64,000 nucleotides of DNA from Nitrososphaerota archaeon (GTDB lineage Archaea > Thermoproteota > Nitrososphaeria > Nitrososphaerales > Gagatemarchaeaceae), in assembly GCA_029785825.1 (NCBI GenBank), contig JAFLYY010000001.1, positions 1,519,374 through 1,583,373 on the forward strand. The letters are read 5' to 3'. Each line of letters opens with the position of its first letter. Position 1 is the stretch's first letter. This document shows, in pieces, positions 13,720 to 18,637 of this stretch. The translations under genes were made by a program, and so were the position numbers. The notes beneath the pieces are model-generated. The model was not told where the DNA came from and made no database searches. It saw nothing but the letters and a program-made list of their open reading frames with translations.

Positions 13720-13814
13720 GGGGTCGTCGGCTAGTCTGGTCTAGGCTTCAAGCCTTGGGTGCCCCCGCGGGCCGAGTTCGCTTGAGATCCCCGGTTCAAA
13801 TCCGGGCGACCCCA
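13720..13814 (+). tRNA. tRNA-Pro(TGG) with one intron
   Basis: Acceptor GGGGTCG pairs with CGACCCC, the T arm is CCCGG-TTCAAAT-CCGGG, and the anticodon stem is CAAGC/GCTTG with loop C-T-TGG-G. The anticodon TGG is at 13756-13758. A 19-base intron (13760-13778) follows base 37, the standard archaeal position. The D stem GGCT/GGCT pairs through two G-U type pairs. No CCA is encoded. Confidence 0.85.
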
Positions 13815-14053
13815 CTAAAACACAATCAAAGCTTCGACATTCCTCGTATCGCCGGGGACCTGCCGGCTAACCCTACGCCTTCCGCGAGCCAAATAGTCTG
13901 CACCTTCGGCTGGGTCTCCCCGGACTTTACCGACCATGTCGTCGCATGTGTTGATGTCAGACAGAAGACTTTGATTGCAGAAGTCGGCGTGGCATCGGCT
14001 GGGCACGTCCGCCTAGCAGCAGAAAATCTTTTGACTATCTGTCCACATAGGTT

Positions 14054-14061
14054 GATATAGT
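14054..14061 (+). promoter_or_regulatory. TATA box for the NrdD-like gene
   Basis: GATATAGT lies 26 bases before the TTG at 14084, the distance of a leaderless archaeal transcript. The 240 bases between tRNA-Pro and this element contain an open frame but no clear start or family match, so I read them as intergenic. Confidence 0.5.
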
Positions 14062-14083: not shown

Positions 14084-16171
14084 TTGCAGGCTGCGCCCCG
14101 CCGGGTCAAGACCATTTACAGCGTGATCGCTTCTCCACAGAGACTTGAGATTCTGAGGATTCTCAACATCAAAGGGCCCCTGACCTACAGCGCCCTGAAG
14201 ACCCTGGCCGGGTTCAAATCGAAAAAGGAGTCGGGGAAATTCGCGTATCACCTCAGGAAGCTAGTGAAACAGCTGCTCATCCAGTTGAACCGGCAGGAAC
14301 GCAAATACACGGTCACCAACCTAGGGAGGCTGGTCCTTAACCTGACAAGGCAGATAGAGGAGCAATCGCTGGTAGAAAGCGGCAAGCTCTATGTCAGGAC
14401 ATCCCATCAGACCATGGAAGAGTTCAACGCAAACAAGATACTCCAGTCGCTGGTGAAGGAGGCCGGGATGCCGGTGGAGCTGGCCCAGAAGATAACCAGC
14501 GAAACCGAGTCGAGGCTCTACAAGTTCCAGACCCAGTACCTTACGGCCCCCCTCATCCGCGAGATAGTCAACGCTCTTCTGGTCGAGCATAGCATGGAGG
14601 AGTACAGGCACAAGCTCACCAGGCTCGGGATGCCGATCTATGACGTCACCCAGCTCCTGGGGAAGGTGGGAGACGACGGCGGGAACGTGGAGGCGCTAGT
14701 CCATCAGACGGGGAAGCAGGTCTTCTCAGAATACCTTCTGCTGGAGCAGCTTCCCAGAGACGTGGCCGACGCTCACCTTTCAGGGGACATTCATATCACG
14801 AATGCGGGTTCCTGGGGGCTCACTCCCGACACAGTCTTCGTAGACCTCCTTTCGATGAAGCCAGCTGGGCTTAACCCCAAGGGGAAGATTGCTAATGCTT
14901 CGATGATTCCTGGCCCAGAGAATGCCGAGAGGGCCCTGGGGATAGTCCTCAACCTCGCCTCCATGCTCACCAGGGAGGTCTCCGATGAAGTGGCCTTCAG
15001 GAACTTCATCCAGTATGTGGGTCCGTTCTGCAAGTCGAGGGGGAAGAGGGAACTGGAATCGCTGCTGCTGCGGTTCTTCGAGACGGTCGGGTCTCCGGTG
15101 GCGGGCGCCGTCGGTCCAGCCATCAGCCTTGACCTGAACCCCTACAAGCACGACGATGTGGGCCGGGAAGTCCTGGACAAGGTCGTGGATGCGGCTTTGG
15201 GCGCCTATAGGACCTACGTCGAAGAGACCCCCAGGCCAGAAGTCAGGCTCCTGCTTGCCAAGCCGAACAGGGTCGACGAGACCCAGACCCTGAAGGATGC
15301 CGCTTCGATAATCTTCAACGGCGGGAGGATAGCTTTCTTCTCCACCGACCAGAGGAGGAGCTTTCTAGGACTGAACGCCAATGTCCTGTCCCCGGAATCT
15401 CAGGCGGACAACGTAAGCGTCCTGTATGGGCTCAGCCTGAACCTCCCAAGGCTCGCCTACGACTCCAACCAGGACGAGACATACTTCAGGGCGAAGCTCG
15501 CCCTTCTCATCGGGGTGGCGTCAGATGCCTTGTCAACGAGGAGGAGGCTGATTGAGAGGACTCTCAAGAGGGGACTCCTGCCTTCGCTCGCGTCGGGATC
15601 CGACGGGGTCACCTCCGACACCATGCCCCTCATCATGAACATGGTAGGGCTCGACGAGACCCTGGCCAGTTTGATACGGGACCCGACTACGGCTTCAAGG
15701 TACGACCTTGCCGAGAAAATAGTTGGGACGGCAACACAGGTTGCAGAAGACAAGTCCACCAAGATAGACAGGCTCGGGGTGGCCATGCTTGATCTGGATG
15801 GAGCGTCTAGGCTCGCGAGCTTAGACGCGGAGAAGTATGGGAAAGCCAACATTCAGCCCCTCATGAAAGGAGCATACACCCAGGCTCCTAGGCTCCAACT
15901 AGCGGACCTGGAGGTCCCAGAGAAAGTAGACTATATGGCAAAGTTAGCCGCGGGCCTTCACGGCGGCATGTCAGTGGCACTCGACGGATCAGCGGAAGAA
16001 GTCAGAGGGATTTACAACCTGATACTCAACGCGACCCCCAAACTCCCCTACTTCAAAGTGGACAGGACGATTTCGGTCTGCAGGAACTGCGGAGCGAAGC
16101 TCCCGCAAGGCGCAACCAGGTGTCCCCATTGCAGGTCGGTTGCCATGTCGCAGTATTCGACCGCGTCCTAG
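14084..16171 (+). CDS. Winged-helix/ATP-cone/NrdD-like protein without catalytic residues
   Basis: A 695-residue fusion. Residues 1-95 are an ArsR-like winged helix (VIASPQRLEILRILN). Residues about 100-190 resemble an ATP-cone, the nucleotide-sensing module of ribonucleotide reductases and NrdR. Residues 195-650 resemble the anaerobic reductase NrdD barrel (AHLSGDIHIT, SLDLNPYK, LHGGMSVAL). A C-terminal zinc ribbon has Cys 666/669/680/683. Outside the ribbon only one Cys is present (in GPFCKSRG), and the chain ends 12 residues after the ribbon without the RVxGY glycyl-radical motif, so it cannot work as a normal NrdD. It lies directly upstream of nrdJ. I infer a nucleotide-responsive regulator analogous to NrdR. 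Confidence 0.8.
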   Translation: MQAAPRRVKTIYSVIASPQRLEILRILNIKGPLTYSALKTLAGFKSKKESGKFAYHLRKLVKQLLIQLNRQERKYTVTNLGRLVLNLTRQIEEQSLVESGKLYVRTSHQTMEEFNANKILQSLVKEAGMPVELAQKITSETESRLYKFQTQYLTAPLIREIVNALLVEHSMEEYRHKLTRLGMPIYDVTQLLGKVGDDGGNVEALVHQTGKQVFSEYLLLEQLPRDVADAHLSGDIHITNAGSWGLTPDTVFVDLLSMKPAGLNPKGKIANASMIPGPENAERALGIVLNLASMLTREVSDEVAFRNFIQYVGPFCKSRGKRELESLLLRFFETVGSPVAGAVGPAISLDLNPYKHDDVGREVLDKVVDAALGAYRTYVEETPRPEVRLLLAKPNRVDETQTLKDAASIIFNGGRIAFFSTDQRRSFLGLNANVLSPESQADNVSVLYGLSLNLPRLAYDSNQDETYFRAKLALLIGVASDALSTRRRLIERTLKRGLLPSLASGSDGVTSDTMPLIMNMVGLDETLASLIRDPTTASRYDLAEKIVGTATQVAEDKSTKIDRLGVAMLDLDGASRLASLDAEKYGKANIQPLMKGAYTQAPRLQLADLEVPEKVDYMAKLAAGLHGGMSVALDGSAEEVRGIYNLILNATPKLPYFKVDRTISVCRNCGAKLPQGATRCPHCRSVAMSQYSTAS

Positions 16172-16181
16172 GGCCGCGAAC

Positions 16182-16221
16182 GTGCTTTACTTTTTGTCAA
16201 CAAGAGTTTACCGCTGAGCAC
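16182..16221 (+). promoter_or_regulatory. Candidate operator upstream of nrdJ
   Basis: An inverted repeat GTGCT (16182-16186) and AGCAC (16217-16221) encloses a second dyad TTGT-CA-ACAA (16194-16203) and two copies of TTTAC. It lies 66 bases upstream of the nrdJ TATA box and could bind a regulator, for example the adjacent winged-helix protein. This is inference from symmetry only. Confidence 0.3.
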
Positions 16222-16286
16222 TTCATGTCAGTCCCCGACGCCGTGACCCTCCAGTTCGAAGGTCAACTAAGAGTCAGCCAAGCCTG

Positions 16287-16294
16287 AAATATAT
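16287..16294 (+). promoter_or_regulatory. TATA box for nrdJ
   Basis: AAATATAT is centred about 35 bases before ATG 16325. An earlier in-frame ATG at 16298 would lie upstream of the expected transcription start, which decides the start codon of nrdJ. Confidence 0.55.
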
Positions 16295-16324
16295 GCTATG
16301 GGCGATGGGTGGGAGGCAGAAGTT

Positions 16325-18637
16325 ATGACGTCAATCGTTGAGAATCCACGAGACTCTCCGGATGTAGGAGAGGAAGTCAAGGGGGAGGTCAAAATCCCGG
16401 TGGAGACCCTAGCTGCGTTCGGAGGAGACGAACTGCGAGCTCGGGTCTTCTATGAGAAGTATGCGTTGAGAGACGCGTCGGGCAGGCAGACCGAGAAGGT
16501 TCCAGCCGACATGTGGCGGAGGGTAGCCCAGGAACTTGCTTCTGTCGAGAAAGATGAGGCAACGAAGAAGGAGTGGGCAGGTAGGTTCTACTGGTTGCTT
16601 GAGAACTACCGGTTCGTCCCGGGAGGGAGGGTTCTGTTCGGGGCTGGACAGACGCGCAAGTCCACGCTGTTGAACTGTTACTTCTTCAAAATCCGTGAAG
16701 ATTCGATTGAAGCCATCTTTGACTGGTGCAAGGAGGCGGCCAGGACCTACAGCTTCGGTGGCGGGGTGGGGACAGACATCTCCGTCCTGCGGCCCAGAGG
16801 GGCCCCAGTGAACAACTCGGCCATCTATAGTTCCGGGTCGGTCTCATTCATGGAGCTCCTCTCCACCACCACGGGGACCATCGGCCAGGCCGGGAGGCGC
16901 GGAGCCCTGATGATCACTATCCGGGTGGACCACCCGGACGTGATGGACTTCATCAACGTGAAGAAGGACCTCAAGAGAGTCAACTACGCCAACATTTCAG
17001 TGAAGATAAGCGACGACTTCATGAGGGCCGTGGAGACAGACGGGGACTTCCTCCTCCATTTCAAGAACGAGAAGGTAGAAGTGAACCGGACCGTGAGGGC
17101 GAGGGAAGTCTGGAAGTCCCTCATCAAGGGGTCCTGGCAGTCTGCCGAGCCCGGGGTCCTGTTCTGGGACGCCATCAAACGGGAGTCGACCACAGAGTAC
17201 AACGGCATGGAGGTCCAGGGGGTAAACCCGTGCAGCGAGCAGACCCTTGAGAGCTATGGGTGTTGCTGCCTCGGGTCGGTCAACCTCAGCGCTTTCGTGA
17301 AGGACCCGTTCACTGAGAGGGCGAGCATAGACTGGGACCAGCTCACTAGGGCCGCCCAGTACGGCGTGAGGTTCCTGGACAATGTCCTCGACTACAACGC
17401 GGAGAGGCACCCCCTAAGCCAGCAGAAGGACGCATCCCTCTGGAGCAGGAGGATTGGGGTGGGAATAACGGGGCTGGGAGACATGCTGATCAAGCTCGGC
17501 CTGAAGTACGACGACGACTCAACCATTGAGTTCGTCGACCACCTGTTCGAGAAGATCAAGAACGTCTTCTACGGTTACTCCACTGAGCTTGCGAAGGAGA
17601 AGGGGAGCTTTCCCGCCTTCGACGCGGCCAAGCACCTAGCGCAGCCATTCATCTCCAGACTTGATGAGAACGTCAAGGAGAAGATCAAAGCCCAAGGGAT
17701 AAGGAATGCCGCCGTCACGACAATCCCTCCGGTGGGGTCTGGGTCGATACTGGCGGGGACAAGCAGTGGTGTGGAACCGGTGTTCGCCCTCTTCTACACG
17801 AGGAGGAGCAAGTCCCTCAGTGAGGGGGAGTTCAAGGTCTTCCACCCACTGGTGAGGGAGTACACAGCCGCGACCGGGGCGAAGGAAGAAGGCCAGCTCC
17901 CGAACTACTTCGTCACCGCCCACGAAATCAGGCCCGAGATGAGAGTGAAGATGCAGGCCACCATCCAGAAGCACATCGACACGGCCATATCGAGCACTGT
18001 GAACCTTCCTGAGGAAATCACCCCCGAAGAGGTCGAGAAGATCTACCTGCTCGCCTGGAAGATGGGGTGCAAGGGCATAACCGTGTACAGGGAAGGGAGC
18101 AGGGAAGGAATCCTGGAGACCGAGAAGGTGGCAAAGAAGACCGAAGTACCGAGGGCGGCGGCTGCCTTCGAAAGGCCCAAGGTGATGGAGGGAAAGACCA
18201 TGAAGTTGAAGCTCCCCCAGGGGAGCATCTACCTCACGGCAAATCTCGAGGACGGAGAAATCAGGGAGGTCTTCGTCACCCTAGGCAAGTCGGGAGCCGA
18301 CGAGAATGCCGACGCTGCCGCGTTGGGCCGCCTGATCAGCCTCTACCTCCAGCACGGAGGGGACATCAGGAACGTAATCTCCACCCTGAAGGGGATCAAG
18401 GGGAAGTACGTTTCCTGGGATGGTGGGACTCAGCTCCAGTCAATCCCTGACGCTATCGCGAAGGCTCTGGAAATCCTGACCCTGAACCACGTGGTGAAGG
18501 AGTCCGGGTTCGTGGCCGAGCCGAAGCATGGAGCGGGACCTAGCACGGGAACCTGTCCAGACTGTCATGAAAGCACTCTCGTGTTTGAGAACGGGTGTTA
18601 CCACTGCAACACGTGCGGCTACAGCAAATGTGAGTGA
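16325..18637 (+). CDS. nrdJ: Class II (adenosylcobalamin-dependent) ribonucleotide reductase
   Basis: Makes deoxyribonucleotides using adenosylcobalamin as radical source, in the cytoplasm. The 770 residues show FVPGGRVLFGAG, LLNCYFF (first redox Cys, about residue 118), FGGGVGTDIS, NPCSEQ (radical Cys and catalytic Asn/Glu, about 302) and PPVGSGSILAGTSSGVEP (phosphate-binding loop, about 490). The C-terminus ends in a Cys-rich tail with two Cys-x2-Cys pairs, as in class II enzymes that use thioredoxin-like reductants. ATG 16325 is preferred over 16298 because of the TATA position and the GGGAGG before it. It depends on cobalamin; a candidate uptake pair lies at 36.7-37.9 kb. Confidence 0.95.
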   Translation: MTSIVENPRDSPDVGEEVKGEVKIPVETLAAFGGDELRARVFYEKYALRDASGRQTEKVPADMWRRVAQELASVEKDEATKKEWAGRFYWLLENYRFVPGGRVLFGAGQTRKSTLLNCYFFKIREDSIEAIFDWCKEAARTYSFGGGVGTDISVLRPRGAPVNNSAIYSSGSVSFMELLSTTTGTIGQAGRRGALMITIRVDHPDVMDFINVKKDLKRVNYANISVKISDDFMRAVETDGDFLLHFKNEKVEVNRTVRAREVWKSLIKGSWQSAEPGVLFWDAIKRESTTEYNGMEVQGVNPCSEQTLESYGCCCLGSVNLSAFVKDPFTERASIDWDQLTRAAQYGVRFLDNVLDYNAERHPLSQQKDASLWSRRIGVGITGLGDMLIKLGLKYDDDSTIEFVDHLFEKIKNVFYGYSTELAKEKGSFPAFDAAKHLAQPFISRLDENVKEKIKAQGIRNAAVTTIPPVGSGSILAGTSSGVEPVFALFYTRRSKSLSEGEFKVFHPLVREYTAATGAKEEGQLPNYFVTAHEIRPEMRVKMQATIQKHIDTAISSTVNLPEEITPEEVEKIYLLAWKMGCKGITVYREGSREGILETEKVAKKTEVPRAAAAFERPKVMEGKTMKLKLPQGSIYLTANLEDGEIREVFVTLGKSGADENADAAALGRLISLYLQHGGDIRNVISTLKGIKGKYVSWDGGTQLQSIPDAIAKALEILTLNHVVKESGFVAEPKHGAGPSTGTCPDCHESTLVFENGCYHCNTCGYSKCE

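Follow-up and report, generated by a model that had tools for sequence, protein, structure and literature searches.

What does a protein that resembles a class III ribonucleotide reductase (RNR), joined to a predicted DNA-binding domain, do directly upstream of a class II RNR gene? We analyzed this question in a stretch of 64,000 nucleotides from a Nitrososphaerota archaeon (the window). The open reading frame at 14084-16171 on the plus strand encodes 695 amino acids from a TTG start and is a real gene, conserved, including the start codon, in about 20 relatives. Pfam gives the domain order as winged helix (DUF7347), ATP-cone, NrdD barrel and zinc ribbon, and the next gene is nrdJ:

14084-14370, plus strand: winged helix (DUF7347/ArsR-like), predicted DNA-binding, residues 1-95 (PF24038, E-value 1.5e-9, residues 11-85)
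14390-14605, plus strand: ATP-cone, residues 103-174 (PF03477, 8.9e-7, 29.8 bits against a cut-off of 25.8)
14642-16063, plus strand: NrdD-like barrel without catalytic residues (pseudoenzyme), residues 187-660 (PF13597, 2.1e-28)
16079-16132, plus strand: C-terminal zinc ribbon, Cys 666, 669, 680 and 683 (invariant), without the glycyl-radical tail expected after it
16325-18637, plus strand: nrdJ, class II (B12-dependent) RNR without an ATP-cone, probable start ATG 16325 (PF02867, 4.7e-110)

This combination of four domains in one protein had been read from the sequence in an initial annotation, and the Pfam matches agree with it. The winged helix and ATP-cone scores both exceed the curated cut-offs, and the ATP-cone core motif VRTS...EEFNANKI is conserved. 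The zinc-ribbon match is weak (6.7e-5, under its cut-off), with its four cysteines invariant in relatives; an HTH_20 match is also below cut-off. By sequence, the barrel matches PDB entries in family-profile searches (9d3x, 4.9e-38; T4 1h78, 1.6e-30). The winged helix searched alone against PDB sequences gave no significant match, and the AlphaFold2 model of the protein, built on an alignment of 13 close relatives, is poor (pLDDT 45).

A tRNA gene lies just upstream of the reading frame, at 13720-13814 (Rfam, 47 bits; missed by ARAGORN). In relatives L021, L022, L023 and L025 the tRNA gene appears to be interrupted around the D-arm by inserted sequence that may be a non-canonical intron.

Loss of the reductase signatures

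The alignment to E. coli NrdD comprised the window protein, three of its near relatives and 40 further family members of the phylum, together with 27 other archaeal NRDD proteins without the winged helix. These 27 keep the Cys175 position and have CC or QCC at Cys384, and their complete C-termini mostly read RVTGY, RITGY, RVVGY or RIIGY; as exceptions, N_L119 and N_L120 have different ends and two others are truncated. Both the Cys175 equivalent and the CC at Cys384 (E. coli numbering) are absent from all 44 winged-helix family members. P_L078 and P_L082 have one stray cysteine in the second (Cys384) loop (TATGCRF), not CC. The HxHD motif, described for PcNrdD as the substrate triphosphate motif (PMC11226230), reads HITN in the 695-residue protein and is lost in all family members, whereas the catalytic NrdDs compared have it. 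The glycyl-radical glycine is also lost in the family of 44, with rare ambiguous exceptions: P_L092 keeps a glycine and P_L083 has one a residue off, and the cysteines are gone in both.

The RVxGY loop is missing from the 695-residue protein and from sampled members of its order (Nitrososphaerales), and it is vestigial in most other family members. In some members outside the order it is recognisable but broken (for instance, FSRVSAKHLPAPF versus WSRVTGYYQAVSG), the kind of remnant that an inactivated enzyme would be expected to leave. The zinc cysteines are kept throughout the family, except in P_L067, P_L096 and P_L097, whose C-terminus is shortened. In the window protein itself, C316 is the only cysteine of the barrel, apart from the four of the zinc ribbon, and the C-terminus is VAMSQYSTAS, with no glycyl-radical tail. 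Both details had been noted at the outset, and the alignment confirmed the suspected loss of the two active-site cysteines and the glycyl glycine.

These data make it well supported, at the level of sequence, that the 695-residue protein and its whole family are dead class III reductases (pseudoenzymes). An unusual but active reductase that uses other residues would be compatible with the homology to NrdD, and variation among class III active sites is known, as in Thermotoga NrdD (PMC4493059). Against this, the glycyl glycine, both cysteines and the triphosphate motif are all missing, and the window's genome has nrdJ for the work. We rejected this reading on the residue data and regard it as very improbable. 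The gene of the 695-residue protein is the only NRDD gene in the window's genome, nrdJ is its only class I/II RNR barrel gene, and neither a catalytic NrdD nor NrdR was found there.

Origin, distribution and selection

A FastTree phylogeny places the 44 family members in a single clade (support 1.0), whose sister group (support 1.0) is the catalytic NrdDs of the same phylum. A single origin of the family from a class III NrdD is thus well supported by the tree. The earlier proposal of descent from a dead reductase fits both the single NrdD-derived clade and the family-wide loss of catalytic signatures. Every one of 24 diverse members scanned contains DUF7347, ATP-cone and NRDD. We surveyed 300 genomes, all of one archaeal phylum, and the protein has a match in 221 of them, including 50 of the 50 from the order; these were counted by similarity, and among the weak ones outside the order there may be some catalytic NrdDs or different ATP-cone proteins. 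Searches of phages and plasmids returned ordinary NrdD, and the single long match has no winged helix and begins with the ATP-cone.

Sequence identity among near relatives is 98-100% for the winged helix and ATP-cone and 68-89% for the barrel. The dN/dS values, which are rough for the most distant pairs because dS is near saturation, are about 0.005-0.012 for the winged helix where measurable, 0-0.013 for the ATP-cone, 0.05-0.14 for the barrel and 0.13-0.35 for the zinc tail. By these estimates, purifying selection is strongest on the winged helix and ATP-cone, as for a regulator and not a decaying gene. The loss of catalytic residues could also describe a functionless NrdD remnant in decay. 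However, dN/dS is far below 1 in every domain, the gene is kept in 50 of 50 genomes of the order and its synteny is constant. The selection and retention data refute this reading, and we give it practically no weight.

Neighbouring genes

The window NrdJ has further matches to NrdJ_Z (1.6e-165) and TSCPD (1.4e-19); an ATP-cone was looked for in it and gave no match. In 48 of the order's 50 genomes (47 of 49 measured, plus the window), the gene of the 695-residue protein is followed directly by nrdJ in the same orientation; in both exceptions the two genes are on different contigs. The initial annotation had suggested co-occurrence with nrdJ in related genomes as a check, and in the order adjacency is the rule.

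Neighbours differ outside the order. Among 30 sampled loci, a second NRDD gene, encoding catalytic NrdD, is directly downstream in seven (the copy in L094 is truncated), and the adjoining gene is nrdJ in one and dcd (dCTP deaminase) in one. A convergent pyrB or pyrI adjoins in 14, often within 20 bp (L068, L070, L072-L077, L080, L081, L084, L089, L090 and L093). A carbamoyltransferase-like gene lies upstream in two, and the remaining five have none of these neighbours. Because pyrB is found just past nrdD or nrdJ in several families, one old locus of regulator, RNR gene and pyrBI is suggested. Taken over both sets of loci, a close tie to RNR genes is well supported.

In the tree, the regulator from the window clusters with its counterparts in the order's other families (support 1.0). 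The window NrdJ, without an ATP-cone, falls far from the nrdJ of these families, yet occupies the same slot. The same distant lineage without an ATP-cone occurs in L003, L016, L018, L021-L023 and L025. This lineage seems to have replaced the order's usual nrdJ in place while the regulator stayed. Because the reductase gene was swapped and the regulator kept its place, the link appears to be to RNR as a function; this is the strongest sign from genome context. Ammonia-oxidizer NrdJ carries its own ATP-cone. The nrdJ frame of L022 contains a LAGLIDADG-intein-like sequence (YWYGFICGLIATDGH), and the phylum has several further nrdJ frames of more than 1100 residues.

The constant adjacency to an RNR gene in the order would also suit a post-translational partner, that is, a dead subunit whose binding adds activity to NrdJ or NrdD, or removes it, and whose winged helix serves protein contact or only autoregulation. 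Selection on the barrel and zinc ribbon, which a pure sensor would not need, favours such a partner, as does the lack of an ATP-cone in the window NrdJ. However, pyrBI and not an RNR gene is the neighbour in 14 of the 30 outside loci, and the protein persists whether its would-be partner is nrdD or belongs to either of two distant nrdJ lineages, a range that is difficult to reconcile with a specific protein interface. The ammonia-oxidizer NrdJ, moreover, already has its ATP-cone. We consider a partner role unlikely.

Promoters and a candidate operator

The upstream regions of nrdJ in near relatives share, on alignment, a conserved TTGTCAAnAnnAnTTnAC block and a conserved TATA box. These and similar elements of the gene's own promoter are placed as follows:

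14029-14059, plus strand: own promoter, with TTTTGAC (14029-14035), a weak operator-like CTGTCCACATAGGTTGATAT (14039-14058) and a TATA-like TTGATATA (14052-14059), about 25 nucleotides before the TTG start
16194-16213, plus strand: candidate operator upstream of nrdJ, TTGTCAACAAGAGTTTACCG, conserved in relatives and spanning an inverted-repeat-like GTCAACAAGAGTTTAC (16196-16211)
16262-16278, plus strand: second, weaker copy, GTCAACTAAGAGTCAGC, 66 bp from the first and less conserved in others
16287-16294, plus strand: nrdJ TATA box, AAATATAT, with ATATAT invariant in aligned relatives

The initial annotation had placed the gene directly upstream of an nrdJ with its own TATA box and a nearby inverted repeat. 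This arrangement stands, with both genes on the same strand, the TATA-like ATATAT invariant and the inverted-repeat-like element conserved. Only the nrdJ start needs revision: it is probably ATG 16325 and not 16298, because 16298 is just a few bases past the TATA box, relatives have indels between the two positions, and ATGACGTCAATCGTTGA at 16325 is conserved.

The two copies in the nrdJ promoter are 64-66 bp apart in relatives with the GTYAA core. A repeat search of the promoters found no repeat; the element is visible on alignment only. The strict motif (GTCAAnAnnAnTTnAC) occurs once in the window's genome, before nrdJ, and this is the sole match genome-wide at up to two mismatches. The motif and its weight matrix were derived from nrdJ promoter sites alone. 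We ran the matrix over whole loci (3.5-18 kb), leaving out each locus's own nrdJ site. The match in the own promoter ranks 1-5 in 17 of 19 loci, which are relatives and not independent; it is most often second or third and usually lies over the TATA box. Part of this score is TATA, because the own sites overlap that box. The scan found no own-promoter match in L005, and the one in the window is weak (score 6.5-7.1, rank 11 of 64 kb). The own-promoter elements are conserved in close relatives L002, L016 and L018.

In 29 ammonia-oxidizer loci the motif failed, with 3/29 and 1/29 at p<=0.05. The ammonia-oxidizer winged helix is nearly identical to that of the window in the likely recognition region. 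In place of the window's element, many ammonia oxidizers (L029-L057) have a conserved palindrome, TATGAAnTTCATA, and GTGTCAA upstream of nrdJ.

Among close relatives, a candidate cis element shared by the promoters of nrdJ and of the regulator gene is well supported. The claim that the protein controls nrdJ and perhaps itself gains from this shared element in close relatives; it is weakened by the poor match in the window's own promoter and by the failure of the motif in the ammonia-oxidizer loci.

The pyrimidine neighbours raise a different possibility, a broader regulator of nucleotide pools that would act mainly on pyrBI and dcd, RNR being just one target among several. Convergent pyrB or pyrI adjoins in nearly half of the outside loci (14 of 30), pyrB or pyrI lies within about 2-3.6 kb in several other loci and in some members of the order, and dcd is present in one. 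Convergent genes, however, share no promoter with the regulator gene, the recognised co-directional downstream neighbours are an RNR gene or dcd, and the best element in the window's genome is unique to nrdJ. Such a breadth of targets is, in our view, quite unlikely.

Comparison with known systems

RNR transcription is known to be controlled by NrdR, a mainly bacterial regulator. Both NrdR and the 695-residue protein combine a small DNA-binding part (predicted here) with an ATP-cone and are linked to RNR genes and to their own promoter. In NrdR, dATP/ATP changes the oligomeric state through the ATP-cone, giving a tetramer that binds paired boxes (PMC9110341). NrdR has about 150 residues, with an N-terminal zinc-ribbon DNA reader followed by the ATP-cone, whereas the 695-residue protein has an N-terminal winged helix and a whole dead reductase, and its candidate DNA element differs from that of NrdR. 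The NrdR model TIGR00244 has no match over its cut-off anywhere in the window's genome. It does in 22 of the 300 genomes, all of one other family (f5; e.g., G297, G184 and G231), where by the listed coordinates NrdR lies within about 1 kb of a different, catalytic nrdD, and a protein of the 695-residue type is present too. The 695-residue protein is, on these features, not a member of NrdR; it appears only to work that way.

With class III NrdD (PF13597, TIGR02487) the protein shares the ATP-cone, the barrel (by sequence) and the C-terminal zinc site. Unlike NrdD, it is without the catalytic cysteines, glycyl radical and HxHD motif and has the extra winged helix; against TIGR02487 it scores 91 bits, where the equivalog cut-off is 326. 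It is thus neither NrdR nor NrdD, as the defining features tested fail for both. Bacillus PurR and the ROK repressors likewise join a DNA-binding domain to an enzyme fold that became a ligand sensor of the same pathway. The present protein differs from these in the enzyme concerned and in where the ligand is sensed, probably at the ATP-cone rather than in the former active site. Its predicted architecture is that of a pseudoenzyme transcription factor. The open-access papers searched contain no description of this protein, nor of an RNR-derived pseudoenzyme regulator with an ATP-cone.

Proposed mechanism

Our preferred reading, to which we assign a probability of roughly 0.68, is that the protein is a transcription factor of single origin in this archaeal phylum, derived from a duplicated NrdD fused to a winged helix, which acts as an NrdR-like repressor of nrdJ and of itself. 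It is probably an archaeal NrdR-like regulator of RNR, a dATP/ATP-responsive autorepressor. The GTCAA-n6-TTnAC element, both upstream of nrdJ and across the TATA box of the regulator's own gene, would be the binding site of the winged helix. The ATP-cone would read dATP versus ATP, and the oligomeric state would change via the old NrdD dimer scaffold. High dATP would favour DNA binding and shut off nrdJ and the gene itself, as NrdR does in bacteria. In this way the protein would probably adjust the supply of DNA precursors to the amount present in the cell. The ATP-cone and the paired site of near-constant spacing suggest the NrdR-like logic, and the site over the gene's own TATA box suggests autorepression. 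Because the NrdJ of the window's lineage is without an ATP-cone, the main dATP feedback on the pathway may be the 695-residue protein.

The evidence leans slightly towards extending this reading to a whole archaeal family for the control of RNR, in which a dead class III RNR with a winged helix would sense dATP/ATP and repress its living relatives and itself. Such a family would be a counterpart of NrdR built independently from RNR, near-universal in Nitrososphaerales (ammonia oxidizers included) and common across the phylum.

Implications

NRDD-domain matches in this phylum are often not reductases, so surveys of RNR classes that count such matches would wrongly credit aerobic archaea with a class III enzyme. 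If our reading is true, RNR control through an ATP-cone regulator evolved on two occasions, each time with a different DNA-binding part. The family would also fill a gap in RNR control in this phylum, including the ammonia-oxidizing archaea, where NrdR was found in one family only.
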